From IMG/VR virus record IMGVR_UViG_3300045009_000419, positions 1 through 20,228 of that record: a stretch of DNA of 20,228 nt; one strand, given 5' to 3'. Every line of letters begins with the position of its first letter. Position 1 is the stretch's first letter. The position numbers and the translations under genes were made by a program. This DNA is from a virus. Shown here piece after piece: positions 1,607 through 19,932 of this stretch. The notes under the pieces were generated by a model that saw only the letters and a list, made by a program, of their open reading frames with translations, did not search any database and was not told where the DNA came from.

Positions 1607-3360
1607 GGCCGAAGTGCTGGTGGGGCAGGAGCGCTTGGTGGAGTAAATTTAATAGTAATGCTCTTAAACAGATCGACATAATTGGCTGCGATTTTGTCGA
1701 AAGAAACATGAAAACTTTGTGGAGAAGTATAAGATGCACCAAACCTTGTTGCATTAATTTTAATTTCCATTTCAAAGTTAAATTTGTCCTGTTCAAAAGG
1801 AACAAGAGCCTTGGGTAGGTCTCTGCTCCAATTATTTATGTACCCGTTCGACCCATCATCAATAACCCACTTGTCGCCATTAAAACGTATTGGACCATTG
1901 GAAGTCATCACATAAGGTTTTTCTTTTGTACCCCATTCGGGAATGGGAATTGAATTAACGTTTTCTTTTGTGAAGTAATTAATTTCCTTTAGAGTCCCTC
2001 CAGACGCACTAATCCGACCCTGAATGCCTCGACTATTGCTTGCCCCATCTATGTAAGAATGCCAGTAGATTTTTACTTTTGCATCGTAAGTAAAGGAAAT
2101 ATCCCTATCAGCGTTTCCGCTTGGGCGCCAATTTTTTGCCGCATCACTTTCCTTCAAATCAAATTTTACCTTCGGCTCTCCAGCAAATGCAAAACCAAGT
2201 AGACTGGCTGAGACATAGTCCCTCGTTGCTGACACCTTGTCAAAAAAGTTAGAAAGACCTTCAATCGTTGCCTTTCTAATTGTCACGTCCTCCTCTTGAT
2301 TTGTTGTTGCATCTGGCGAAGCATCGGAGCCGGTAGGAATGGGAGTATCTATTGTAAAAAGGGTTTTTTCTTTTACAAACCCCATGTAGATCGCCTGCAC
2401 GGTTAGAAATACTTTTGCTTGCGTTGGCACGTAATTACTATTAAATTTGTGAATATTTACTTCGCTGCTGAGCACAAAACCTTCAACCATCATCCATGGG
2501 GCTAGTTGAACGCGCACAGGAACTGGAGTAAGAAATGCGGTGTTGCCCAGATTTGGATTTTCAGAGTCTGTGGTAAATTGAAAGGCGACAACGGGAGTCC
2601 CAGCCTCGTTTGACTTATCCGTATCGTCAGTGTTTTCAGTTTTTGCGGGTTCAGAATCCATTTTTGAAGCAATGTTTTGTACAATCATAGACATTTCTTG
2701 GTTAAACCCTTGACCAATTACAGCGTCAAGAACCATTAGATCGGCAAGAATACCAATGCCACAAACCCAACTTGGGTTATATTCTCCGGTAATAAAGTCC
2801 TCAGGTCTGGTTTGCAGCGACCTTCGGGCAACCTCAAGATTTGCGGTTGCAATTTTATTTCCAATTTTGTATTTTCCAGACCGCAATTCAGCCTCGCGGT
2901 TAAAAAGCAATTCAAGTGTGTACGTTGATTCACCGTATTTAGGAACAGCCAACTGAGCCGGATCTTGATTAAAGAAAAAGTGTGTGCTCATGTTGGCAGT
3001 TACATTTCGCACAACCTGCTCTGGCTGAAATTGAAATTTAACTTTGCGGCCATTAAGTTGAGGAGCGTTTGGCATGCGTGCAAAAAATTCATTTAAACGA
3101 CGAATATACCCTCGTTGAATTTGAACAAGGTTTCCAGCGTTATCACGTACTGTTCCACCGGGATAAAGAAAATCAGGATTATCCCAGTACTTACTTGGTT
3201 TTTCCAAAGAACTGGGAGTCAGCGATCCCTGCACCTCTTGGATGCGTTCCGAGGTGTCGGGCGGCCGCAGTGCGGTGGCGCTGGTAGAACGTTGCTGATT
3301 GTTCTGTTGGTTTTTTGCCGCGCTTACAGTCGCTTTATCTCCTCCGTTAAGATTGGGCAT
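1603..3360 (-). CDS. CIS-tube-like baseplate protein (hub adaptor), with long C-terminal extension
   Basis: A 585-aa protein. The first 90 residues are polar and Gln/Ser/Thr-rich. From about residue 105 there is 'KVKFQFQPEQVVRNVTANM' followed by 'YTLELLFNRE'. Near 295-335 there is 'WMMVEGFVLSSEVNI' followed by 'VPTQAKVFLTVQAIYMGF'. Together these match the pattern of the contractile-injection-system tube protein N-terminal domain (Afp7/Pvc7 family): F-x-F-x-P-E, L-x-L-x-F-x, and a later G-x-V-x-S-x-x-x-x-x-x-F strand pair. An acidic, disordered insert (about 235-255, rich in D/E/T/K) interrupts it. Residues about 400-585 form an extra beta-rich region with a Pro/Ala-rich tail that I cannot assign. 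The start overlaps the tape-measure stop (TAATG), with GAGG 8 bases upstream. Position before LysM and hub fits an adaptor between tube and baseplate. Confidence 0.6.
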   Translation of the reverse strand: MPNLNGGDKATVSAAKNQQNNQQRSTSATALRPPDTSERIQEVQGSLTPSSLEKPSKYWDNPDFLYPGGTVRDNAGNLVQIQRGYIRRLNEFFARMPNAPQLNGRKVKFQFQPEQVVRNVTANMSTHFFFNQDPAQLAVPKYGESTYTLELLFNREAELRSGKYKIGNKIATANLEVARRSLQTRPEDFITGEYNPSWVCGIGILADLMVLDAVIGQGFNQEMSMIVQNIASKMDSEPAKTENTDDTDKSNEAGTPVVAFQFTTDSENPNLGNTAFLTPVPVRVQLAPWMMVEGFVLSSEVNIHKFNSNYVPTQAKVFLTVQAIYMGFVKEKTLFTIDTPIPTGSDASPDATTNQEEDVTIRKATIEGLSNFFDKVSATRDYVSASLLGFAFAGEPKVKFDLKESDAAKNWRPSGNADRDISFTYDAKVKIYWHSYIDGASNSRGIQGRISASGGTLKEINYFTKENVNSIPIPEWGTKEKPYVMTSNGPIRFNGDKWVIDDGSNGYINNWSRDLPKALVPFEQDKFNFEMEIKINATRFGASYTSPQSFHVSFDKIAANYVDLFKSITIKFTPPSAPAPPALRP

Positions 3361-6104
3361 TACGTTGTCCTCAACACTTCCCGTTTAAGATTTTGCTCAA
3401 GAATACGGGCAATCTCATTTGCCATGCGTCGTGCATCGTCTGGTGTACTACCGCTAGAGGTAACGTAAATATTAGGAGAAATAGTAACATTTGTTCCACC
3501 ACTTACTTTAACGTTGGTGCTTCCGCGAGTGGGGGCACCAGACATTGGGTCACCACTCATGTAGCCCAACTCTTTGGTAATTGCCATGGCTTTGGGCAAA
3601 ACATCAGCGGTCTTGGCCATAGGGTTTCCGTCAATTGCCCAAGGGCTGTAGTTGCCGCCACCAAACAAAATTCTGGCTGCTTTAACGTTATTTTTTGGGT
3701 CATACAAGTCTTCGTTTTTTGACAATTTATATTGCTTAAGACGTGAGGGCCCAAGGTCTCCTTTCATGTTAATTTGGAACAAGCCGTATGACAAATCATC
3801 GTCATCGTCGGCAAGCACTCCGGGAACCCATCGAGATTCTCGGTAAGAAATAGCCAGCATGTTGGCTACGTCCTGTCCACGAAACCCTCTGGCGTACAAC
3901 ATACGTGCAAGTTCATACGGATCAATTGCGCCCTGTCCCGGAGTTACTCCTTTGGGCATGCCCGTTCCCGGCTTCGTACCACTAGCAGCGGCTGCGGTTG
4001 CCTCACTGTTTCCGGAGCCATCCATTCCGCTGTAGTTGCTGGACGCAGTTGAAGACACAATGTTAGAGATGCTAAATTGATTAAACGTTTCGTAGCCAGA
4101 CATTCCGCCGCCGCCCCCGCTTGGGACTACGCGATCACCCACCACATATCCACTTGTGGGCTTTCCAGTATTTGGATCAACAGTCGTTGCTCCTGTCATA
4201 GTACCCGCAGGTTGGCCCCACGGAGAACCTTGCTTTTCGTACTCATAACGCGAATCAGGAAGTTCCAAAGGTTGAACGTGCCATGGCTCGTTAAGGTTTT
4301 TAGCAAACGTTTTAAGCCCAAACTTTTCAGCGTTCTTAACAACCCAATCAAGGTCACCGACAAGGTCTGCGGCCAAACCAATTTCGTGCATAGAACGACC
4401 CGGGGGCGCCGCCGGAGCGCCACTAGTGTGCTTCCACCCCTGTCCATCCCATTCAAGGTCAGGTTTTTCGCCATCCCGTACTGGACGGTACCGCGTCATA
4501 AACATCGTACGTTGATCGGTTTCTGAACGGTGACCTACACCAAGACCAACGTTGGGGTTTTCAGCAAACATGCGTAACAACCGGTCACGAAACTTAGAAT
4601 TAAGTTTTGAAAACGAGGGAGTGTTAGCCATTTCCCCAAGCGTTACACGCTTGGCCGGACTACTATAACCAAGAGGAACTTTGGTCATGTTGGGAGAGCC
4701 TGTTTTTCCTTCAGGTATTGGGTCACCTGCCACCATCGACGCGCCAAGCGTTGCCATTCCAAATCCTACGGGCGTCGCCAAGCCGAACGACATCCCGCTA
4801 ACTGCGAGACCGCCAAGCATCAATGCGCCACCCGCCACTTTGCGGGCGAGGCCGCCCTTGGTGCTTACACCCACACCAACAATTCCAGAAAGTTTGTCCT
4901 CAAACTGACCAAGTTTTTCAATAACGCCTTGCATACCCTTTTCCATTTGCGCGTAGTTATCTGCTTGTCGTTTATAAAATTGCTCATCGCGCGCTTCTTT
5001 TGTTCGCGCAGTTTCTTCTGCTTGCGTAGCAAAGTTATCCTCAATACCCATGATTCGTCGTTGTTTTGCAGACGTTGGGTCATACATGTCTTTACTACCA
5101 GTTTTTTTCTGATAAGACTGGTTGGCTTCGGCATAATCAAGAACTAGGTCAATCATGTCTGGCGGCACACCGGCGGATTCAAGCATTGCTCTGGTATTTG
5201 ACCCTTGTTGGCGGGCCCCAGCCAACCGATCAGCATTTGTAAGACCGGTTCTCTGAACAATTTGTTTAATAACATCGTTCATTGAGTTTTGCTGACCACC
5301 AAAGCCGTACAAACCCGTGCCAAGCATCATGGTCATTCGGTTGTTAACAGCAGCACTTCCCAATGTTCCAGCCATCTGAGCCATTTGCTCGGTGCTGTAT
5401 GAGTACCCAGACACAGCACGAAGACCAGCAATACCAGCAGCGTTTTTCTGCGCGCTTATACCCGTCGATGCCTGCAGTGAAAGGAGGGTATTAATACCTC
5501 CGTAACCTAAACGAGCACCGCGCATTGGGTCGCGCATTTGCTCGATATACTGCATGTTTGAGATGCCCTTGTTTTGCTGGTAATACACAGCAAGTTTGTC
5601 AACAGACAGCGAACGAAGATAGTTGTTGTCAATACGGGAATCAAGCGCTTGAATTCCTAAACTAAGGGCTTGAAACCCCGCCCTCACCGCACCGGCTCCT
5701 TTTGCGTCCTTAACGCCAGCGCTATCACCGCCAGCGCCAGCGCCACCGGGATTAATTATGTTGACAATTTGGCTGTTACTTACCGGAGACTTTGATTGGT
5801 CAGCCGACGGACCACCGCCCGCTGGGCCCAGTGGAAGGGGTACACCGGCGCCTGTGGGATTTTGTCCACCACTTCCACCCCCCAAACCACCAGTTTTTTG
5901 AATTCCTTGCATTGTGCGCAAGGTTTTGTTTAGTTGATCATTAATTTTTGGCAATGACTTATTAAGATACTCAAAGTCCTTGCGAATTTGTGTGATTCCC
6001 GCAACAAGTTTGTCCAGCGATTGAACATCAACTCTAAAACGCGAACGCAGATCACCCATGGCCTTGCCACGCCCTGCGTTTCCTGCAAGTGACTGTTCTG
6101 CCAT
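3360..6104 (-). CDS. Tape measure protein with M15 peptidase and lysozyme-like transglycosylase domains
   Basis: A 914-aa protein in the tape-measure slot, after the tube and chaperone. Residues 1-70 are helical; 70-140 are Gly/Pro-rich; about 140-410 are mostly helical. A Gly/Ala-rich hydrophobic segment at about 418-461 could insert in a membrane. An M15 (VanY-like) D-Ala carboxypeptidase domain follows at about 505-620, with SMHEIGLAAD at 571-580 (H573 and D580 as zinc ligands) and EPWH at 606-609 (E606, H609). Residues about 735-835 are a lysozyme/SLT-like domain, with catalytic Glu756 in SYRESR, SYGLFQIN near 772-779 and a conserved-type NNVKAA segment. The C-terminus is a short beta and helix tail. 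Tape measures set tail length and are ejected into the cell, so these domains would open the wall during infection. AGGAG lies 6 bases before the ATG. The two domains are clear; the tape-measure role is inferred from place and length. Confidence 0.85.
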   Translation of the reverse strand: MAEQSLAGNAGRGKAMGDLRSRFRVDVQSLDKLVAGITQIRKDFEYLNKSLPKINDQLNKTLRTMQGIQKTGGLGGGSGGQNPTGAGVPLPLGPAGGGPSADQSKSPVSNSQIVNIINPGGAGAGGDSAGVKDAKGAGAVRAGFQALSLGIQALDSRIDNNYLRSLSVDKLAVYYQQNKGISNMQYIEQMRDPMRGARLGYGGINTLLSLQASTGISAQKNAAGIAGLRAVSGYSYSTEQMAQMAGTLGSAAVNNRMTMMLGTGLYGFGGQQNSMNDVIKQIVQRTGLTNADRLAGARQQGSNTRAMLESAGVPPDMIDLVLDYAEANQSYQKKTGSKDMYDPTSAKQRRIMGIEDNFATQAEETARTKEARDEQFYKRQADNYAQMEKGMQGVIEKLGQFEDKLSGIVGVGVSTKGGLARKVAGGALMLGGLAVSGMSFGLATPVGFGMATLGASMVAGDPIPEGKTGSPNMTKVPLGYSSPAKRVTLGEMANTPSFSKLNSKFRDRLLRMFAENPNVGLGVGHRSETDQRTMFMTRYRPVRDGEKPDLEWDGQGWKHTSGAPAAPPGRSMHEIGLAADLVGDLDWVVKNAEKFGLKTFAKNLNEPWHVQPLELPDSRYEYEKQGSPWGQPAGTMTGATTVDPNTGKPTSGYVVGDRVVPSGGGGGMSGYETFNQFSISNIVSSTASSNYSGMDGSGNSEATAAAASGTKPGTGMPKGVTPGQGAIDPYELARMLYARGFRGQDVANMLAISYRESRWVPGVLADDDDDLSYGLFQINMKGDLGPSRLKQYKLSKNEDLYDPKNNVKAARILFGGGNYSPWAIDGNPMAKTADVLPKAMAITKELGYMSGDPMSGAPTRGSTNVKVSGGTNVTISPNIYVTSSGSTPDDARRMANEIARILEQNLKREVLRTT

Positions 6105-12932: not shown

Positions 12933-14018
12933 TCAGGAATCCCCGATTGCGCCACCCTTGGTGTTGATAACGACACGAGACTCGGCGGTAATCATGCCGA
13001 AGCCCCAAATCGCGTACCAAGCCAGACCGTGCTCACGACCGAAGTCAATGACACCACCGTCACGGAGTTCGACCGGGAGGGCAATGGCATGACCGAAGGC
13101 GTTGTCACCGATCATAAGGGCGCTGTACGACGATGCGGCAGGAGCCTGCGTGCCAGCCGAGCCGCTGTCAATGTCGGCGGGACCGCCACCCTGCTTGACT
13201 TGCGTTGTCTCGATGAAAACAACGTCATACAAGCGGCCAATCTCACCAAGCATGAAGTTGCCCGGAGCAGCGTACTTGGTGACCTCAATGAACTCCGGCC
13301 AGTCACGGAGCGCACGGCTCTGCGACGGGTGAACGAAGCACACGTAAGTGTCGCCCAGACGAGGAATGTTTAGTCCAGCCAAAATCTCAACTGCATCCTT
13401 GACGGTTGCGGGCGAGAAATAGCCCGGGTTAGTAGCGTTACCAGCAGCGCTGTACTCGTACGGAGCAATTGAACCACGAGTTGCACCATTGGTCAGGCGA
13501 CCAAAAACCACCGACGGAGGAACGGCGGCGCCACCAGCAAACGGAACAGCGTTCTGATACAGCGTGTTGCGGGCTTGAATGTCCATGGATTGCGCCATGT
13601 GACGACCAAGCAGACGCGAGGCCGAGGCCATCACGTCGTCAAACGCCGCGTTGAGGAGCAACTCAGTGACCGCAATGGCCTGCCCATGCTCACCAACGGT
13701 GATCTGAATTTGCGAAGCCGAAAGAGCAACCGGCTCAAGACGAACACCTTCAGTGAGGGTCGCGCCGGTAGACTCGTTCACGCCAAGATTCGTGTAACGC
13801 ATAAAGTTGATCGTGAGACCCGGCATGACACCAAGTTCGGTCTTCTTCACTGCGAACTGCTCAAAGCGCAGAACAGGCATCGCTTGGAACAAGATCTCCT
13901 TGCTCCAAATTTGTTGAATTGCGGGAGAGAGGGTTGCGTCACTTGAGTAACCGGTCGTCGTCACTGACGTGAGTCCGGCGCCTGTAATCGCACCGCCTAC
14001 TGGGGCTGGAAGGGCCAT
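12933..14018 (-). CDS. Major capsid protein, N4 gp56-like family
   Basis: A 361-aa protein. After a Gly/Thr-rich start it has 'SPAIQQIWSKEILFQAMPVL', then 'VKKTELGVMPGLTINFMRY', 'GVNESTGATLTEGVRLEP' and 'ITVGEHGQAIAVTELLLNAA', followed by 'LLGRHMAQSMDIQARNTLY'. This series is the pattern of the N4-gp56-family HK97-fold capsid proteins (E-loop entry, 'G-x-x-x-x-V-T-x-L' strand, then the spine helix). Later 'LGDTYVCFVHPSQSRAL' and 'GRLYDVVFIET' match the P-domain and A-domain strands. The hairpin just after its stop and the strong GGAGG site 7 bases before its ATG fit high expression. It follows the scaffold gene directly. No N-terminal delta domain is obvious, which fits a separate scaffold. 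Confidence 0.88.
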   Translation of the reverse strand: MALPAPVGGAITGAGLTSVTTTGYSSDATLSPAIQQIWSKEILFQAMPVLRFEQFAVKKTELGVMPGLTINFMRYTNLGVNESTGATLTEGVRLEPVALSASQIQITVGEHGQAIAVTELLLNAAFDDVMASASRLLGRHMAQSMDIQARNTLYQNAVPFAGGAAVPPSVVFGRLTNGATRGSIAPYEYSAAGNATNPGYFSPATVKDAVEILAGLNIPRLGDTYVCFVHPSQSRALRDWPEFIEVTKYAAPGNFMLGEIGRLYDVVFIETTQVKQGGGPADIDSGSAGTQAPAASSYSALMIGDNAFGHAIALPVELRDGGVIDFGREHGLAWYAIWGFGMITAESRVVINTKGGAIGDS

Positions 14019-14050: not shown

Positions 14051-14839
14051 CTAGAACCGACCCCGTGTGGGTCGAGAGTTCAATAACCTATCCCTCATCT
14101 TAACATACTGATCCATCGACATGTTGCGAATGTCATCCGCACTCAACGTTTGGTATTCCGTTTGGGTTTCCATAGGTCCAACGGGCGGAGCAGTCACCGG
14201 AGCGCCTTTAACGACGCGCGGCTGTGTCGCCTGCTGAACACTAGAAAGTATAGCAGCGCTACGGTTCTTAAGGATTTCAATAGACGCATCAACCTCTTCA
14301 GCATTGTTTCCTGCAACCAAATCAATCAATTCAGGAATAATGCTTTCCTGCTCCTCATGCATTCGGCGCTGGCGGTATGTCTCAAGGTCGCGCAGCGCAC
14401 GCTCTTTCTCGAGAAGGGCTTGCTGGGCTTGGCGCTCCTGCTCAATTTGAGCAAAACGATTTTGCCATTCAGCATCAATGTTCTGAATTTTGACGTTAAA
14501 CTCATCTTCCTTGCGGGATAGCAGTTCCTTGGCGCTCAGTTCCTCAAACTCGCGCTTACGGCGCGCCTCTTCCTCAGCCCGAGCGGTTTCTTGAGCCTTC
14601 TTAATGGCCTCCTCACGGTCACGGGTAAGGACAGCCAACTGCTCTTCCAGCGCCTTGGTGCGCTTATCCGCTTCCTCAATGCGCCGGTAGAGTTTGTCTT
14701 TCTCCTGCTTACGAATGTTTTCCACTTCGTCTTCAGTGAAGACCCGCTGTTTCGTGCCCGTCACGTGGGCCGCTTCGTCCGTGAAGGCTTCAACTGCCTC
14801 AACAGGGACGACAATTTCTTCTGCTTCTCGCTTTGCCAT
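14051..14839 (-). CDS. Capsid scaffolding protein (coiled coil)
   Basis: A 262-aa, highly charged protein between portal and major capsid protein. Residues about 36-166 are almost all Glu, Lys, Arg, Gln and Ala in heptad-like spacing, so a long coiled coil is clear. The N-terminus is acidic, and the C-terminus is Pro/Thr-containing then basic (RDRLLNSRPTRGRF), similar to the capsid-binding ends of known scaffolds. Scaffolds guide procapsid assembly and leave or are cut before packaging. No protease motif is visible in it, so it is not a protease-scaffold fusion. AGGAG lies 5 bases upstream of the ATG, in an AT-rich 51-base gap after the portal gene. Confidence 0.8.
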   Translation of the reverse strand: MAKREAEEIVVPVEAVEAFTDEAAHVTGTKQRVFTEDEVENIRKQEKDKLYRRIEEADKRTKALEEQLAVLTRDREEAIKKAQETARAEEEARRKREFEELSAKELLSRKEDEFNVKIQNIDAEWQNRFAQIEQERQAQQALLEKERALRDLETYRQRRMHEEQESIIPELIDLVAGNNAEEVDASIEILKNRSAAILSSVQQATQPRVVKGAPVTAPPVGPMETQTEYQTLSADDIRNMSMDQYVKMRDRLLNSRPTRGRF

Positions 14840-14890: not shown

Positions 14891-16582
14891 TTATTTATCT
14901 TCATCAGGAACACGACGTTGGGCGAACCTCGCGCCGTATGCCCTGCTAGTAATTTTGTTCATCAAATCCATTTCGATGGGACTAATCCCAACGCCGGGAA
15001 GGACACCCCCACCTTGGGGATTTCCCGCCGTATTAACATTAGCACCTCCAGCAGAGGTCGTTTGCATGCCAGACGCATCCGGCAATAGCCCTGTGGCAAG
15101 CATAACCGCTTGCCCAATTTGAGCGCGGACAAGGTCAAGGGCGCCTTGATCAATCGCGTCATCCATAAGTTCATCAAAGATTTCTATCATTTTCTCGTTC
15201 GGGAACTCCTCGCCCAGCGCTTTCAGCGCGCCCTTCTTTGATTCAAGGCCAAGAGCCATTTTTGACTGCACCTCATTAAGTTTGATTAGTGCGTCAACGG
15301 GAAGCGGGTCTGGCCAGTGAATTGTAGTTTTGTAAGTGTTGGGATCGTTGGGGTCCAACTGTGTAAGTTGGTCAGCCTCCGGCATGGCTGATTGCATTGG
15401 GTCATACACAAGCAACTGTGGTTCAAAAATTGCTGCCGTGCGAATAATAATTTCATTAAGTTTTTCAAGACCGTTTGTAAAATGAGTCTTTTTCATTTGA
15501 TAACGGTTCATCAACGGCTGGTATTGGATGGCAAGAGCCACACCGCTTGTATTTGATACGGGCTGGAATTGTCCTAGTGCTGTTTCTGGAACACCAGTAA
15601 TTTCATGCATTGATCGCTTAATCATTTGCACGTATTCAAGAGCACCCGACATCTCACCGCGAGACTCGAGGTTGAACACCTGTGCATCTTTGGGAAGACC
15701 TGCCCAAACTTTTTTGGGCCCACGCTCTAATTGGCTGGCTTTTGCACCCGTGATGATGGTGACGGGGGCAGCGTGGTAATTGATGATGTCAGAAATTTCT
15801 GTCATCTTTTCATTGAGTTCGCGATTTAACTGAATTATGTCCCAAATGTCAGACTGGCCCCACGGGGACGACGTAATAGTGACGTTTGGAATGTGCACAA
15901 TGGGGACCATTCCAAGAGCGTTGGGATACTCGTCAACCATCTCATCATTGATGAACTGCTGCACAGTTGCATCTGTAAGAATTTCTGTAAACGTGTATAC
16001 CTGACGAGTACCTTCCGGGGACGTGCCCCAGAAACGATACTTGAGTTTGAAACGCAACAAACGTTCGCGGTCGTGTGGGTGATATTCGGGGAAACAATGT
16101 GCTGGGTTGAGCGGCAAAATTCGAATGCGGCCCGCATGCATCATGCCTGCGGAATCCACATACGGCTCGTCGTACGCAACTTTTACAAAGCAGTCACCCG
16201 TGACGGAAGCCAACTGCCCCATTTGCCACAACAGATAATGTTTATTGTTATGGTTGTCCCAAACTTCGTGCAGCAATCGCGGAATAATTGCGCCGTTTTG
16301 TTCTGAAACTTTAAACTGCACTCCCTTACCAAAGCAAAAGTTGTTAATAAAATCCGACATCGTGCGGACATAATTCATCGTGATGTTGTTGTCGCCCATC
16401 TCACGTCGGTAAGACCAATGATGCCCGAGGTACCACGCCCAAGCGGACGAGTACCTATTTAGACGCGGACCATGAACTTCAAACTCCTCATCCGCCAATT
16501 CAACAAGTCCAAGTGGACTGATGGCAACGGTAAGGTCGCTAGAAGCCGCCCGGTATGACGGGGACCAAAAATCAATTGGCAT
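14891..16582 (-). CDS. Portal protein, SPP1 gp6-like
   Basis: A 563-aa protein. Near 68-88 is 'TMNYVRTMSDFINNFCFGKG', the wing-side helix and 'G-K-G-V' turn of SPP1 gp6-type portals. At 122-135 is 'GQLASVTGDCFVKV', a core portal strand pair. About 300-340 holds 'GALEYVQMIKRSMHEITGVP', the 'I-x-R-x-x-x-E-I-T-G-V-P-x-x-x-L-G' helix of the stem/crown region. A Gly/Asn-rich C-terminal part ends in a charged tail. The portal is the dodecameric ring for DNA entry and exit and the docking site for terminase. GAGG is 7 bases before the ATG. Size is within the usual range for this family. The terminase genes are not in the window. Confidence 0.92.
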   Translation of the reverse strand: MPIDFWSPSYRAASSDLTVAISPLGLVELADEEFEVHGPRLNRYSSAWAWYLGHHWSYRREMGDNNITMNYVRTMSDFINNFCFGKGVQFKVSEQNGAIIPRLLHEVWDNHNNKHYLLWQMGQLASVTGDCFVKVAYDEPYVDSAGMMHAGRIRILPLNPAHCFPEYHPHDRERLLRFKLKYRFWGTSPEGTRQVYTFTEILTDATVQQFINDEMVDEYPNALGMVPIVHIPNVTITSSPWGQSDIWDIIQLNRELNEKMTEISDIINYHAAPVTIITGAKASQLERGPKKVWAGLPKDAQVFNLESRGEMSGALEYVQMIKRSMHEITGVPETALGQFQPVSNTSGVALAIQYQPLMNRYQMKKTHFTNGLEKLNEIIIRTAAIFEPQLLVYDPMQSAMPEADQLTQLDPNDPNTYKTTIHWPDPLPVDALIKLNEVQSKMALGLESKKGALKALGEEFPNEKMIEIFDELMDDAIDQGALDLVRAQIGQAVMLATGLLPDASGMQTTSAGGANVNTAGNPQGGGVLPGVGISPIEMDLMNKITSRAYGARFAQRRVPDEDK

Positions 16583-16604: not shown

Positions 16605-16889
16605 TTACTTCTTCTTGGCGGGGGCTTTCTTTGCAACAACTTTGGAAGAGGTCTTGGGTGCATTCTTTTTCTTGGTGGCCTCAACCGCCTTGACAGCAAG
16701 ATCAACCAACAGTGCCGTGTTCTTGTCGCCAACCTTGGTTGAAACCCACGAAAGTCCAAGGGTTACAAGTGGAAGCGCAAGTGCAACAAGTTCAGAAGTT
16801 ACACCAGCCTTTGCCGCGCCGTAAGTAAGGACGCCCAAAACAGCGCCTTTAAGGGCAGCATCTTGATGAGTCTTGTTTAAATCAGCCAT
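16605..16889 (-). CDS. Small membrane protein, r1t-like holin candidate
   Basis: A 94-aa protein. Two hydrophobic stretches lie at about 13-28 (ALKGAVLGVLTYGAAKAG) and 33-52 (LVALALPLVTLGLSWVSTKV). A charged segment (VGDKNTAL) follows, then a Lys/Ala-rich tail ending KKAPAKKK. This is the build of r1t-type holins: two membrane helices, a 'K-V-G-x-x-x-T-A' segment after the second helix and a positive C-terminus. Such holins make pores that release the endolysin. It lies next to the portal and about 2.2 kb from the endolysin, so linkage is loose. Other small membrane or DNA-binding proteins with similar tails cannot be excluded. AGGAG is 6 bases upstream. Confidence 0.5.
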   Translation of the reverse strand: MADLNKTHQDAALKGAVLGVLTYGAAKAGVTSELVALALPLVTLGLSWVSTKVGDKNTALLVDLAVKAVEATKKKNAPKTSSKVVAKKAPAKKK

Positions 16890-16917: not shown

Positions 16918-17553
16918 TTATACAGGCTTAACATTTTTACGCGGAATGTCCCCTCCCTGAACATACACGTGATACGGGGCTCCGGTGTATGGGTCAAATT
17001 TAGCAGCCGCAGCAAGTGCTTTCATAACGTGTTTCCTTGCCGTTGCAAGATTTATGCGCGTCTTCATTTGAAGCACATGCAATGCTCCCATAGCATATTG
17101 TGCCCCCGTGCCAATGGCGTACATGCCAGCGGAATCGGAGTACCACGAATAATCTCCCTCAACGGTATAAATAACGTTGTTGATAGCCACAATGACCGAA
17201 GAGTCGTGCTCTGCAATGTGCTCTTTATCATCTTTGTCCGGCACTGCGTATCCCTGCAATTCAAAGCACTCACGCAATGAAGGGATAAATTTAGTTGTAA
17301 AAAAGTGATCAAGTTTCTTACCCCGAAGTGTGTGCGGTGCTGCGGGTGGGGAAAACGCGTGGTGCAAAATGTTAATAGCCCGCACGTCACCTGCTGCTCC
17401 TAACAAATACCTTCCGTTAGAGGCTATCTTTCCAGCACTCTCCCTTAAAGTTACAACTTGGGTGGCGTACCCTTCATCGGCAAAATCAGAAACTTGAGAA
17501 TCACAGCCAATGAGAGCAAAACCATCGCCTTGGATACCGACAATAGTAGTCAT
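16918..17553 (-). CDS. Proteasome/HslV-like Ntn-hydrolase (threonine protease)
   Basis: A 211-aa protein beginning MTTIVGIQGDGFALIGCDSQ, very like the start of HslV and proteasome beta subunits. If the first Met is removed, Thr2 becomes the N-terminal nucleophile, with no propeptide. Asp18 (D17 of the family count) and Lys42 (in AGKI, the K33 position after an 8-residue insert) are in place. 'LLGAAGDVRAINILHHAF' (50-67) matches the 'G-x-A-G-x-x-x-D' region. 'IGTGAQYAMGAL' (147-158) matches the G-S-G turn before the helix, and 'DPYTGAP' (187-193) matches the D-x-x-S/T-G site. Such enzymes cut peptide bonds inside oligomeric rings. It starts 2 bases after the phosphoesterase stop and precedes the holin and portal genes. 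A non-protease Ntn role is less likely. Its partner and substrate are unknown. Confidence 0.85.
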   Translation of the reverse strand: MTTIVGIQGDGFALIGCDSQVSDFADEGYATQVVTLRESAGKIASNGRYLLGAAGDVRAINILHHAFSPPAAPHTLRGKKLDHFFTTKFIPSLRECFELQGYAVPDKDDKEHIAEHDSSVIVAINNVIYTVEGDYSWYSDSAGMYAIGTGAQYAMGALHVLQMKTRINLATARKHVMKALAAAAKFDPYTGAPYHVYVQGGDIPRKNVKPV

Positions 17554-17555
17554 TG

Positions 17556-18704
17556 TTACGCCCGAAATTCAACATCTCCGTACATTGCCCAACCGTCATA
17601 GATTGACGTTACGTTGTACTGAAAACGATGTTCGCCATCAGTTTCGTAAGTAACTACAGCAAATCCTTGTTGCCAGTTCTCGTAGCGAGTGAGCGGACGA
17701 CCATCGAGGTCAACTCCGCCCTTCGTAGACGGAACCGCGCCGTCAATACGAGCAAGACAACCGGGACTAGCAGCCATAATGGTGCGAGGACCATTAAAAT
17801 CTTCACGAGTCTTAAACGCGGTTTCAATCCTGTGAATGTGTCCATAAATTACGCTCGTTTTTTCGTTGTTGAGGTATACATTAGCCGTAGAGCCGGAAGA
17901 CTTCACACGGTCACCGTGAATTACACGCAATTTTTCGTTAATCCAATAATCAGAGGCTGGATACCCGGGGCGGTATTCTACGCCGTACTCGTCCATGCGA
18001 CAAAGGTACGGCACGGTAAGCACAGGCCACGATTCGGGAGTGTTGCCTTTGCGGAGACCATACGCAGCGGCAGCGTTAGTCAACAGGTACTTTGGCATTC
18101 GCTCCTCGTGATTGCCAGCCATCCAAACGATGCGCGCATGAGGGGCGGCCTCACGAAGTTGTGCGCAGAACAACGTAGCGCGATCAATTGCTGCTTGGGT
18201 GGTTTGTTGGTACGCAGGAGTTGTCAAATACTTGCCCATCTCAGGCAAGTCAAGATTGTCGCCCACACACACAATGGCTTTTGGCTGAACGTACGTAATC
18301 GCCGCAAGAACAACGGCGATTGCCTTCTCGTCATGGGTAGGCTCTAACCGTCCGTCACGGCCACGGTAATAACCAATCTGGGCGTCAGGGACAATAAAGT
18401 CCTTAAAAAACTTAGTAGAAATCTTCTTTTGTTTTGCGGGAGTAGGCAACTTGACAGCAGGCCCCGGTTGGATAACGGGCCAATCAGGGCCCTGCTCCCA
18501 CTTTGGTGAAAACTGAATAGCGGCAAGATCGTGGACCTGCGCCTCGCCCTCGTCATCTTTGGTAAGAGACTGATAAATAGAGACTTTGCGAATGTCCCCA
18601 ATGTCTTCAAGAGCAATGTTTTTGCGCTCTAGCATGTCAACCAATTGACCAAGAAGCCTTTGTTTTTTTTGGGATTGGTTTAAGTCATCAACAATTTTAG
18701 ACAC
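17556..18704 (-). CDS. Calcineurin-like metallophosphoesterase
   Basis: A 382-aa protein, read from the GTG at 18704, which has AAGGAG 7 bases upstream; a GTG two codons earlier is too close to that site. Motifs in order (this numbering): PDAQ with D107 and Q109, GDNLD at 148-152, GNHEE at 197-201, VIHGD around 262-265 and GHIH at 288-291. These bind the two metal ions of the family. The first motif is D-x-Q rather than D-x-H, as in some MPE subfamilies. Residues 1-100 are a charged helical N-terminus without a known domain. The enzyme probably hydrolyses a phosphate ester of nucleic acid, nucleotide or protein; the substrate is not evident. It overlaps the upstream HTH-like gene by 8 bases and lies 2 bases from the Ntn-hydrolase gene, suggesting joint expression. 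Confidence 0.88.
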   Translation of the reverse strand: MSKIVDDLNQSQKKQRLLGQLVDMLERKNIALEDIGDIRKVSIYQSLTKDDEGEAQVHDLAAIQFSPKWEQGPDWPVIQPGPAVKLPTPAKQKKISTKFFKDFIVPDAQIGYYRGRDGRLEPTHDEKAIAVVLAAITYVQPKAIVCVGDNLDLPEMGKYLTTPAYQQTTQAAIDRATLFCAQLREAAPHARIVWMAGNHEERMPKYLLTNAAAAYGLRKGNTPESWPVLTVPYLCRMDEYGVEYRPGYPASDYWINEKLRVIHGDRVKSSGSTANVYLNNEKTSVIYGHIHRIETAFKTREDFNGPRTIMAASPGCLARIDGAVPSTKGGVDLDGRPLTRYENWQQGFAVVTYETDGEHRFQYNVTSIYDGWAMYGDVEFRA

Positions 18705-18966
18705 AACCACACTCCTTGTTTACATGTCGTTGGATTACTGACAGGCTGACATTAATGTTGTTTTTTCTTAGTATTTTAGAAAGCCACGTTGTCGTGTACA
18801 CCCGACCATGACCATTTCCATGATCTTCGCGAATCAACTCCACGGCCCTATTCATCGCCTCTTGTTCGTCAGGCGTCATTTGGTCAATTATCTTTTGCAA
18901 CTTGCACAAGTTCTTTTCTTGTTTAGGAAGTCCCAAGAGATCAGCAAGCAGAGAACTATCAGACAT
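18697..18966 (-). CDS. Small HTH-like protein
   Basis: An 89-aa protein, read from the ATG at 18966. A longer frame with a TTG start would overlap the previous gene deeply. It begins MSDSSLLADLLGLPKQEK, has a helical middle (KLQKIIDQMTPDEQEAMNRA) and ends with 'TTTWLSKILRKNNINVSLSV' followed by 'IQRHVNKECGCV'. The last part, helix-turn then 'V-S-x-S-V-I-Q-R-H', looks like a winged or plain HTH, with a Cys-x-Cys end. It may bind DNA, for example as a small regulator, but no named family is recognised. The start overlaps the preceding stop by 8 bases, and its own stop overlaps the phosphoesterase start by 8 bases. Confidence 0.6.
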   Translation of the reverse strand: MSDSSLLADLLGLPKQEKNLCKLQKIIDQMTPDEQEAMNRAVELIREDHGNGHGRVYTTTWLSKILRKNNINVSLSVIQRHVNKECGCV

Positions 18967-19108
18967 GTTGTTTTTGCTTCCGTTGTTTGCGCTGTTGCTT
19001 TTCGTGCTCAAGCCGATCAAGCAAGTTGACAAGAAGGTCAACCTCCCCAACGCCGGGAAAGACCTTTCGCAGGAAATAGATTACTAAATCGAGGTCGTCA
19101 CTTCTCAT
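18959..19108 (-). CDS. Small protein of 49 aa, unknown
   Basis: A short acidic-to-basic protein, read from the ATG at 19108: MRSDDLDLVIYFLRKVFPGV, then a Leu/Val-rich segment (EVDLLVNLLDRLEHEK) and a Gln/Lys/Arg tail. An upstream TTG (19180) in the same frame is open but lies inside the endolysin end; a second TTG at 19144 has GAGGGG directly against it. GAGG occurs only 2-3 bases before the ATG, too close for a good site. A promoter predicted just upstream would start transcription at about the ATG, so a leaderless message is possible. Function unknown. Confidence 0.5.
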   Translation of the reverse strand: MRSDDLDLVIYFLRKVFPGVGEVDLLVNLLDRLEHEKQQRKQRKQKQHV

Positions 19109-19149: not shown

Positions 19150-19932
19150 CTAGAGGGCCGCCCAAACCTTGTTGTTGCAAATCCCATTTTCCTGAAGACC
19201 AATGGATTTTTTAAACGCATTTACGGCTTTTTCAGTGTCATCATTGAAGTCGCCAGTAATTTGACAAATAAACCCTTTAGCCACAAGTTTATTTTGCAGA
19301 TCCTTGACTTTAGGGCCTTTATCGCCTTTCCGCAACTTGTCGTCTGCCTCCTGCCCCTCAAAAGCGGCACCGGGGTCGGGAGGCGTAATGTTGTTTTTTT
19401 GCATGTATGCAACAACAGCGGGCGGCGGATTAGAACCCTTAACATAGCGTAGATGCCACGGCTCCTCAGGAACAACTTCCCACGAAAAACCAAACGTAGC
19501 AACGTTGTTAATTAGCCATTTAAGACGCTTAGGCTCAGCAGCCGTATGCACGTCAACGGCCACACCGAGGTTATGCTGACTACTACCCGGTGCCGCAAGG
19601 GGCGCCATGCCTTTTTTTAAGAACCATTTTTTTCCATTGAACGTTCGAGTGCTTGCGCCTGCAATTGGTTCCAAAACATAGCGTTGTTTGAAGGCCGCCA
19701 ACTGCGAGTCGTATGTACGATATGTGTCCCCAGCCGATACGGGTTTGAGTTCAACGCCGTCGGCCTTGGCTTTATCAACCATTGCGCCCCATGCTGCCGC
19801 CGCAATCCAATGCAATTTCCCACCGCCGACCGCTGGACGTAGGAGGGCGTCGGGAATTTTTCCCGGCGTAACGCCTTTAAGATCATCTGGAAGTTTAACA
19901 GGAACGACATAGTCCCACTCTACCTTAGCCAT
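19150..19932 (-). CDS. Endolysin: M15 peptidase with peptidoglycan-binding domain
   Basis: A 260-aa protein. Residues about 35-165 are an M15/VanY-like D,D- or L,D-peptidase domain. It has 'SAGDTYRTYDSQLAAFKQRY' near 66-85, SQHNLGVAVDVH at 118-129 (zinc ligands H120 and D127), and EPWHLRY at 157-163 (catalytic E157 and zinc ligand H160). After a Pro-rich linker, residues about 200-260 form a PG_binding_1 domain: KGDKGPKVKDLQNKL, then 'ITGDFNDDTEKAVNAFKKS' with the usual G-x-F-x-x-x-T-x-x-A-V pattern. There is no signal peptide, so release would need a holin. It cuts stem peptides of peptidoglycan for lysis. GAGG lies about 9 bases before the ATG, after an AT-rich 55-base gap with a promoter-like element. 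Confidence 0.93.
   Translation of the reverse strand: MAKVEWDYVVPVKLPDDLKGVTPGKIPDALLRPAVGGGKLHWIAAAAWGAMVDKAKADGVELKPVSAGDTYRTYDSQLAAFKQRYVLEPIAGASTRTFNGKKWFLKKGMAPLAAPGSSQHNLGVAVDVHTAAEPKRLKWLINNVATFGFSWEVVPEEPWHLRYVKGSNPPPAVVAYMQKNNITPPDPGAAFEGQEADDKLRKGDKGPKVKDLQNKLVAKGFICQITGDFNDDTEKAVNAFKKSIGLQENGICNNKVWAAL

Follow-up and report, generated by a model that had tools for sequence, protein, structure and literature searches.

A 20,228-nt fragment of an uncultured phage (IMG/VR record IMGVR_UViG_3300045009_000419, positions 1-20,228; this whole stretch is called the window below) encodes a 211-aa protein that is predicted to be a proteasome-like Ntn hydrolase with a complete set of catalytic residues. 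We consider it most probable, at about 0.6, that this is a phage-borne group I proteasome-like peptidase of the BPH/HslV type whose substrates in the infected cell are proteins of the host or the phage, and which has no part in capsid building. A BPH-like compartmental peptidase is favoured because of the catalytic residues, an acidic pore loop as in BPH and the lack of an AAA_2 unfoldase in records with the same gene order (type A, see below). Possibly, the peptidase works without a dedicated ATPase. The first-pass annotation had proposed a threonine protease that either matures the capsid by an unrelated fold or alters host protein turnover. The enzyme class was corroborated; of the two functions, altered host protein turnover is the better guess.

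Gene organization of the window

The protease gene and its neighbours are listed in Table 1. In the window lineage, the protease, endolysin, holin-like and head genes form one run on the same strand. This arrangement points to late expression and agrees poorly with a role in early takeover. The stop codon of the phosphoesterase gene is located 2 nt ahead of the protease ATG (TAACAATG), and translational coupling between both genes is likely. RNA structure at the start codon of the protease gene does not exceed chance. The portal gene is the next large gene after the protease gene, with a single 94-aa ORF in between. As had been noted at first pass, only a scaffold gene lies between portal and capsid genes: The interval comprises one 262-aa ORF homologous to the annotated GiJojo scaffolding protein (35% identity). 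The position of the 117-aa ORF is filled by one family of small ORFs in type B phages as well as in the type A locus L163. Three features point to a probable actinobacterial host: head genes resembling those of BRock, a phosphoesterase of the actinophage type and a match to WhiB in the related record G002. Elsewhere in the window, positions 3360-6104 encode a 914-aa protein that resembles a tape-measure protein in its position and combines a VanY-like stretch with an SLT/lysozyme-like domain. This means, two cell-wall enzyme domains reside on one tail polypeptide.

Table 1. Protease gene and surrounding genes in the window.
Product	Coordinates	Strand	Features
Endolysin	19150..19932	-	VanY peptidase and peptidoglycan-binding domain; family matches
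117-aa protein, no assigned function	18697..19050	-	Upstream of phosphoesterase gene
Metallophosphoesterase, 384 aa	17556..18710	-	PHROG 20266; most constant protease-gene neighbour across phages
Proteasome/HslV-like (BPH-like) Ntn hydrolase (predicted), 211 aa	16918..17553	-	Thr2 nucleophile, Asp18, Lys42, Gly55 oxyanion hole, G148-T149-G150, D187/T190/G191; from families, model and conservation
94-aa protein, holin-like by eye	16605..16889	-	Hydrophobic segments and basic tail, no family match; putative
Portal protein, SPP1 gp6-like	14891..16582	-	53% identical to portal of Streptomyces phage BRock
Scaffolding protein, 262 aa, coiled-coil type	14051..14839	-	31-35% identity to BRock/GiJojo scaffold
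Major capsid protein, N4-gp56 family	12933..14018	-	Family matches; no N-terminal prosegment relative to BRock

Sequence evidence for a proteasome-like Ntn hydrolase

The protease ORF has an ATG start and begins with MTTIVGIQGDGF. It contains Thr2 directly after the Met, Asp18, Lys42, Gly148-Thr149-Gly150 and D187-P-Y-T190-G191, i.e. the HslV/proteasome set with MTT start, GTG turn and D-x-x-T-G site on which the initial assignment was based. The Pfam family Proteasome (PF00227) is matched with 32.4 bits (9e-8, cut-off 22.4); a six-frame search yielded 20.7 bits, which is under this cut-off. PHROG 1040 ("peptidase HslV family") matches residues 1-204 with an E-value of 6.7e-25. No homology to S78/PHROG 80 was detected in the protein, the only matches being those to Proteasome and PHROG 1040. 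In a single-sequence search of solved structures, two BPH proteins (5OVS and 5OVU) came first, followed by HslV. BPH was the best phmmer match (E 0.0027), at an identity of only about 17-20%. Matches to alphaRep proteins that topped a profile search were discarded as artefacts of one short conserved stretch.

T2, D18, K42, G55, the G-x-G at 148-150 and D187-x-x-T-G are invariant in 38/38 phage homologues. In a wider set, Thr/Ser1, Asp and Lys are kept in all 16 proteins and the oxyanion Gly in 12 of them. A Thr or Ser nucleophile is likewise retained, together with Asp and Lys, in ten more distant GenBank phages. The catalytic triad, whose loss in homologues would have spoken against the assignment, is preserved throughout these sets, with Ser as alternative nucleophile. 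Between the window copy and a 90%-identical copy (L004), dN amounts to 0.053 and dS to ~3.2, which is near saturation. Therefore, the gene is under strong purifying selection. A role in anti-phage defence was rejected, as a PADLOC search for such systems gave no match.

Predicted fold and possible mode of action

An AlphaFold model built from 35 phage homologues (pLDDT 83, pTM 0.81) was compared with the PDB. BPH ranked first (E 4.7e-11) and HslV second (8e-10), followed by 20S beta subunits and Anbu. In total, 1152 matches were found at E<=0.001, and among the 50 matches listed, all are proteasome, HslV, BPH or Anbu proteins. The likeness to HslV proposed at first pass was borne out by this comparison, but BPH is closer. 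The model contains helix H2 (residues 78-99), and the pore loop is acidic in 35/35 alignment rows (net charge -1 to -4). Among the helices, conservation is highest in H1 and H2 and lower in H3 and H4 (mean top-residue frequency 0.96, 0.86, 0.79 and 0.64 for H1 to H4). In the proteasome architecture, H1 and H2 face outward and form the side where caps dock. A conserved partner at this face is plausible, since just these helices are both best conserved and outward-facing.

Hydrolysis by proteasomes and HslV, in which the hydroxyl group of an N-terminal Thr attacks peptide bonds, is well established. By analogy, Met1 would be removed by the host methionine aminopeptidase, which would expose Thr2. 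The Thr2 hydroxyl would then attack peptide bonds, assisted by its own amino group, Lys42 and Asp18. The subunits may assemble into a double ring like those of BPH and HslV. Unfolded or small proteins might pass the acidic pore loop at residues 100-118 and enter with no dedicated ATPase supplied by the phage. Alternatively, a host AAA+ partner or chaperone docked on the very conserved H1/H2 could mediate entry. The enzyme might trim or degrade host or phage proteins during infection in the course of takeover, counter-defence or amino-acid recycling, and would not contribute to capsid building. A more far-reaching version of this proposal envisages a clade of ATP-independent mini-proteasomes specific to viruses and found essentially in environmental phages only, which bind a conserved partner at H1/H2 and degrade a defined set of host proteins; this version is rather unlikely.

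Comparison with known proteasome homologues

BPH is nearest to the window protein in both sequence and fold and shares with it the acidic pore loop. It is characterized by a long acidic pore loop, and no unfoldase is known for it (PMC8665760). Differences are the low sequence identity given above and the occurrence of BPH in bacterial genomes. BPH forms a heptameric double ring, an arrangement that the window protein may share. With HslV (ClpQ), the window protein has in common the fold, the Thr1/Asp17/Lys33 chemistry and the MTT start. In contrast to HslV, it scores far under the equivalog cut-offs and is not accompanied by a conserved HslU-like gene.

Phage-borne group I proteasome homologues designated PPH, AAH and CPH have been described without a function, and AAH was not found in Actinobacteria-specific phages (Fuchs et al., 2021; PMC8665760). 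Like the window protein, they are group I-like and encoded in Caudoviricetes genomes, and a partner ATPase was not found. However, PPH comprises about 140 aa and lacks H2, whereas the window protein has 211 aa and H2. Further phage-encoded proteasome-like proteins are g89 of Citromicrobium phage RXM, already noted as a phage 'BPH' (PMC8953757), and the HslV-annotated gene product of DSL-LC01 (OQ999401), which is 49% identical to the window protein. PHROG 1040 phage proteins agree with the window protein in the catalytic residues and in the match across residues 1-204; compared to distant members, both the S3-S4 hairpin and the acidic pore loop are longer in the window clade. Judged by its sequence, the window protein belongs to a known, widespread phage family in which the longer S3-S4 hairpin distinguishes its clade. 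Literature searches revealed no tested function for any phage member.

Distribution and gene neighbourhoods

A scan of IMG/VR with the window protein yielded 175 relatives, and with an alignment as query at least 464. In GenBank, homologues are present in actinophages (phages of Microbacterium and Arthrobacter, such as WaterT with gene 15 and Hum25 with gene 81, respectively, and DSL-LC01), some of them already labelled 'protease' or 'HslV', and furthermore in phages of Psychrobacter, Vibrio, Tenacibaculum, Moorella, Geobacillus and Tunturiibacter. The bacterial genome collection contained a single close match, L108 ('Gammaproteobacteria MAG'). By gene content, L108 is a type B phage contig, so this MAG bin contains phage sequence. 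The 299 genomes of the same phylum otherwise gave remote matches only (best 30 bits), and a cellular origin was rejected on these grounds.

Several gene orders can be distinguished. Type A, represented by the window, has the order endolysin, 117-aa ORF, metallophosphoesterase, protease, 94-aa holin-like ORF, portal, scaffold and capsid. In type B, the order is metallophosphoesterase, protease and WhiB-like regulator, and the portal gene is not nearby. Types C-E have other neighbours around the protease gene. In distant phages, it has genes for thymidylate synthase, DHFR, DNA ligase or helicase in its vicinity, or it sits within a group of small genes located upstream of the terminase gene. The phosphoesterase gene is located directly upstream of the protease gene in 57/69 distinct loci, and the portal gene directly downstream in 13/50. 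A WhiB-like regulator gene directly downstream of the protease gene was observed at L015:10646-10963 and L082:20715-20954 (type B loci, DSL-LC01); this neighbourhood suggests a takeover operon.

A tree built from 40 proteases places the window protein and its nearest type A relatives with type B, away from the other nine type A copies, and a single type A clade was rejected (AU p=0.0013). Nevertheless, the type A phages compared have capsid proteins that are 79-100% identical over the matched stretch. Thus, the protease gene moves independently of the head genes.

Alternative functions

The window protein could be an HslV-type core particle that depends on an unfoldase, either host HslU, ClpX or Mpa or a phage AAA protein. 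Its predicted fold matches HslV, a cap could dock at the highly conserved H1/H2 side, and one relative, the 169-kb record G006, encodes a 474-aa Clp-type ATPase (L117:5441-6865, AAA_2 E 6e-53). However, the HslV equivalog models are matched with only 24.1 bits (TIGR03692, cut-off 157.75) and 28.1 bits (NF003964, cut-off 137), the pore loop is BPH-like and an unfoldase gene is not conserved together with the protease gene: A search of the type A records G001-G003 for AAA_2 unfoldases was negative. This makes unfoldase dependence unlikely. A dedicated phage unfoldase was rejected as a candidate, since a true Clp-type ATPase is encoded in 1/16 records, that of G006, and the weak PF07724 matches recurring in type B are MoxR-like AAA proteins. 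The latter belong to a conserved pair of a MoxR-like AAA ATPase and a CobT/VWA-like protein encoded on the opposite strand at a distance of ~4-10 kb to the protease gene (L015:14600-16872 and type B equivalents).

A peptidase that participates in lysis or envelope processing together with the metallophosphoesterase and the endolysin is improbable, too. The frequent position of the phosphoesterase gene directly upstream, the VanY endolysin gene close by and a related phosphoesterase within the lysis region of Clavibacter phage CN1A would be in accord with such a role. However, many actinophages have the phosphoesterase without the protease, while groups C-E and distant phages have the protease without the phosphoesterase. 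Moreover, proteasome-like enzymes are cytosolic, and no export signal was seen in the window protein.

According to the first-pass annotation, the enzyme might be a prohead protease of unrelated fold, with scaffold or capsid protein in the window lineage as its substrate. The protease gene is located next to the portal gene in 13 loci of this lineage and on the same strand as the head genes, and an S78/PHROG 80 protease was not found there. In the related 73.6-kb record G001, searches with S78 and PHROG 80 revealed no head-maturation protease and a Pfam scan of 30 of its larger ORFs no protease families, in agreement with the absence of a usual prohead protease stated at first pass; the type A records that were used (73.6 and 66.6 kb) may be incomplete. 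The underlying premise that tailed phages normally have such a protease was too strong: Scaffold-dependent heads without internal protease are well known (PMC3185693), and SPP1, P22 and T7 use a separate scaffold and form their heads without one (PMC6813328).

Several observations led us to reject capsid maturation. A Peptidase_S78 head protease co-occurs in 9/18 records with the protease gene, including DSL-LC01, and close copies (about 60-73% identity) are found in phages where an S78 head protease and an unrelated portal are encoded side by side. In DSL-LC01 and Microbacterium phage WaterT, capsid maturation proteases are annotated ahead of the capsid genes. Conversely, the Streptomyces phages BRock and GiJojo share the head block of the window (portal 53%, scaffold 31-35%, capsid protein 59% identity) and lack the gene: Neither a PHROG 1040 relative (E<=1) nor a PHROG 80 protease was detected in them. 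In the protease tree, the window copy groups with S78 phages and not with all phages of the same head (AU p=0.0013). Residue 10 of the 361-aa capsid protein corresponds in the alignment to residue 4 of the 340-aa BRock protein, so an N-terminal prosegment is lacking. Finally, the protease gene lies outside the portal-capsid interval, and the vicinity to the portal gene holds for the 13 loci but does not extend to the remainder of the 50. It is very unlikely that the window enzyme matures the capsid; an additional, non-essential processing role in the window lineage is possible. Even less probable is a transpeptidase or ligase like connectase acting via the extended S3-S4 hairpin beside the active site, for although the connectase signature sits at the S3-S4 insertion site (PMC8665760) and the Asp18-Lys42 stretch is longer in the window clade than in distant phage relatives, the insert is short and poorly conserved, and connectase lacks H1/H2, the best-conserved part of the window protein.

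In both type B records checked for the position of S78 (G004 and G007), it is encoded directly after the portal gene, and for the protein of G004 a match to PHROG 80 'head maturation protease' was obtained as well. In the large records G006, G019 and G020, no S78 was found. As a separate observation, these S78 domains are parts of giant proteins: In G004, the domain comprises the N-terminal ~170 aa of a 1,225-aa ORF (L118:7412-11089), and in G007 it resides within an ORF of >3,600 aa (L119:9047-19999).

Biological implications

With at least 464 relatives on viral contigs, phage proteasome-like peptidases are common. Two natural comparisons, phages with the same head but without the gene and phages that carry the gene beside S78, largely remove the capsid hypothesis and direct attention to protein turnover in the infected cell. 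As some Microbacterium and Arthrobacter phages that encode homologues have been isolated and their laboratory hosts are named, this question is directly amenable to experiments.
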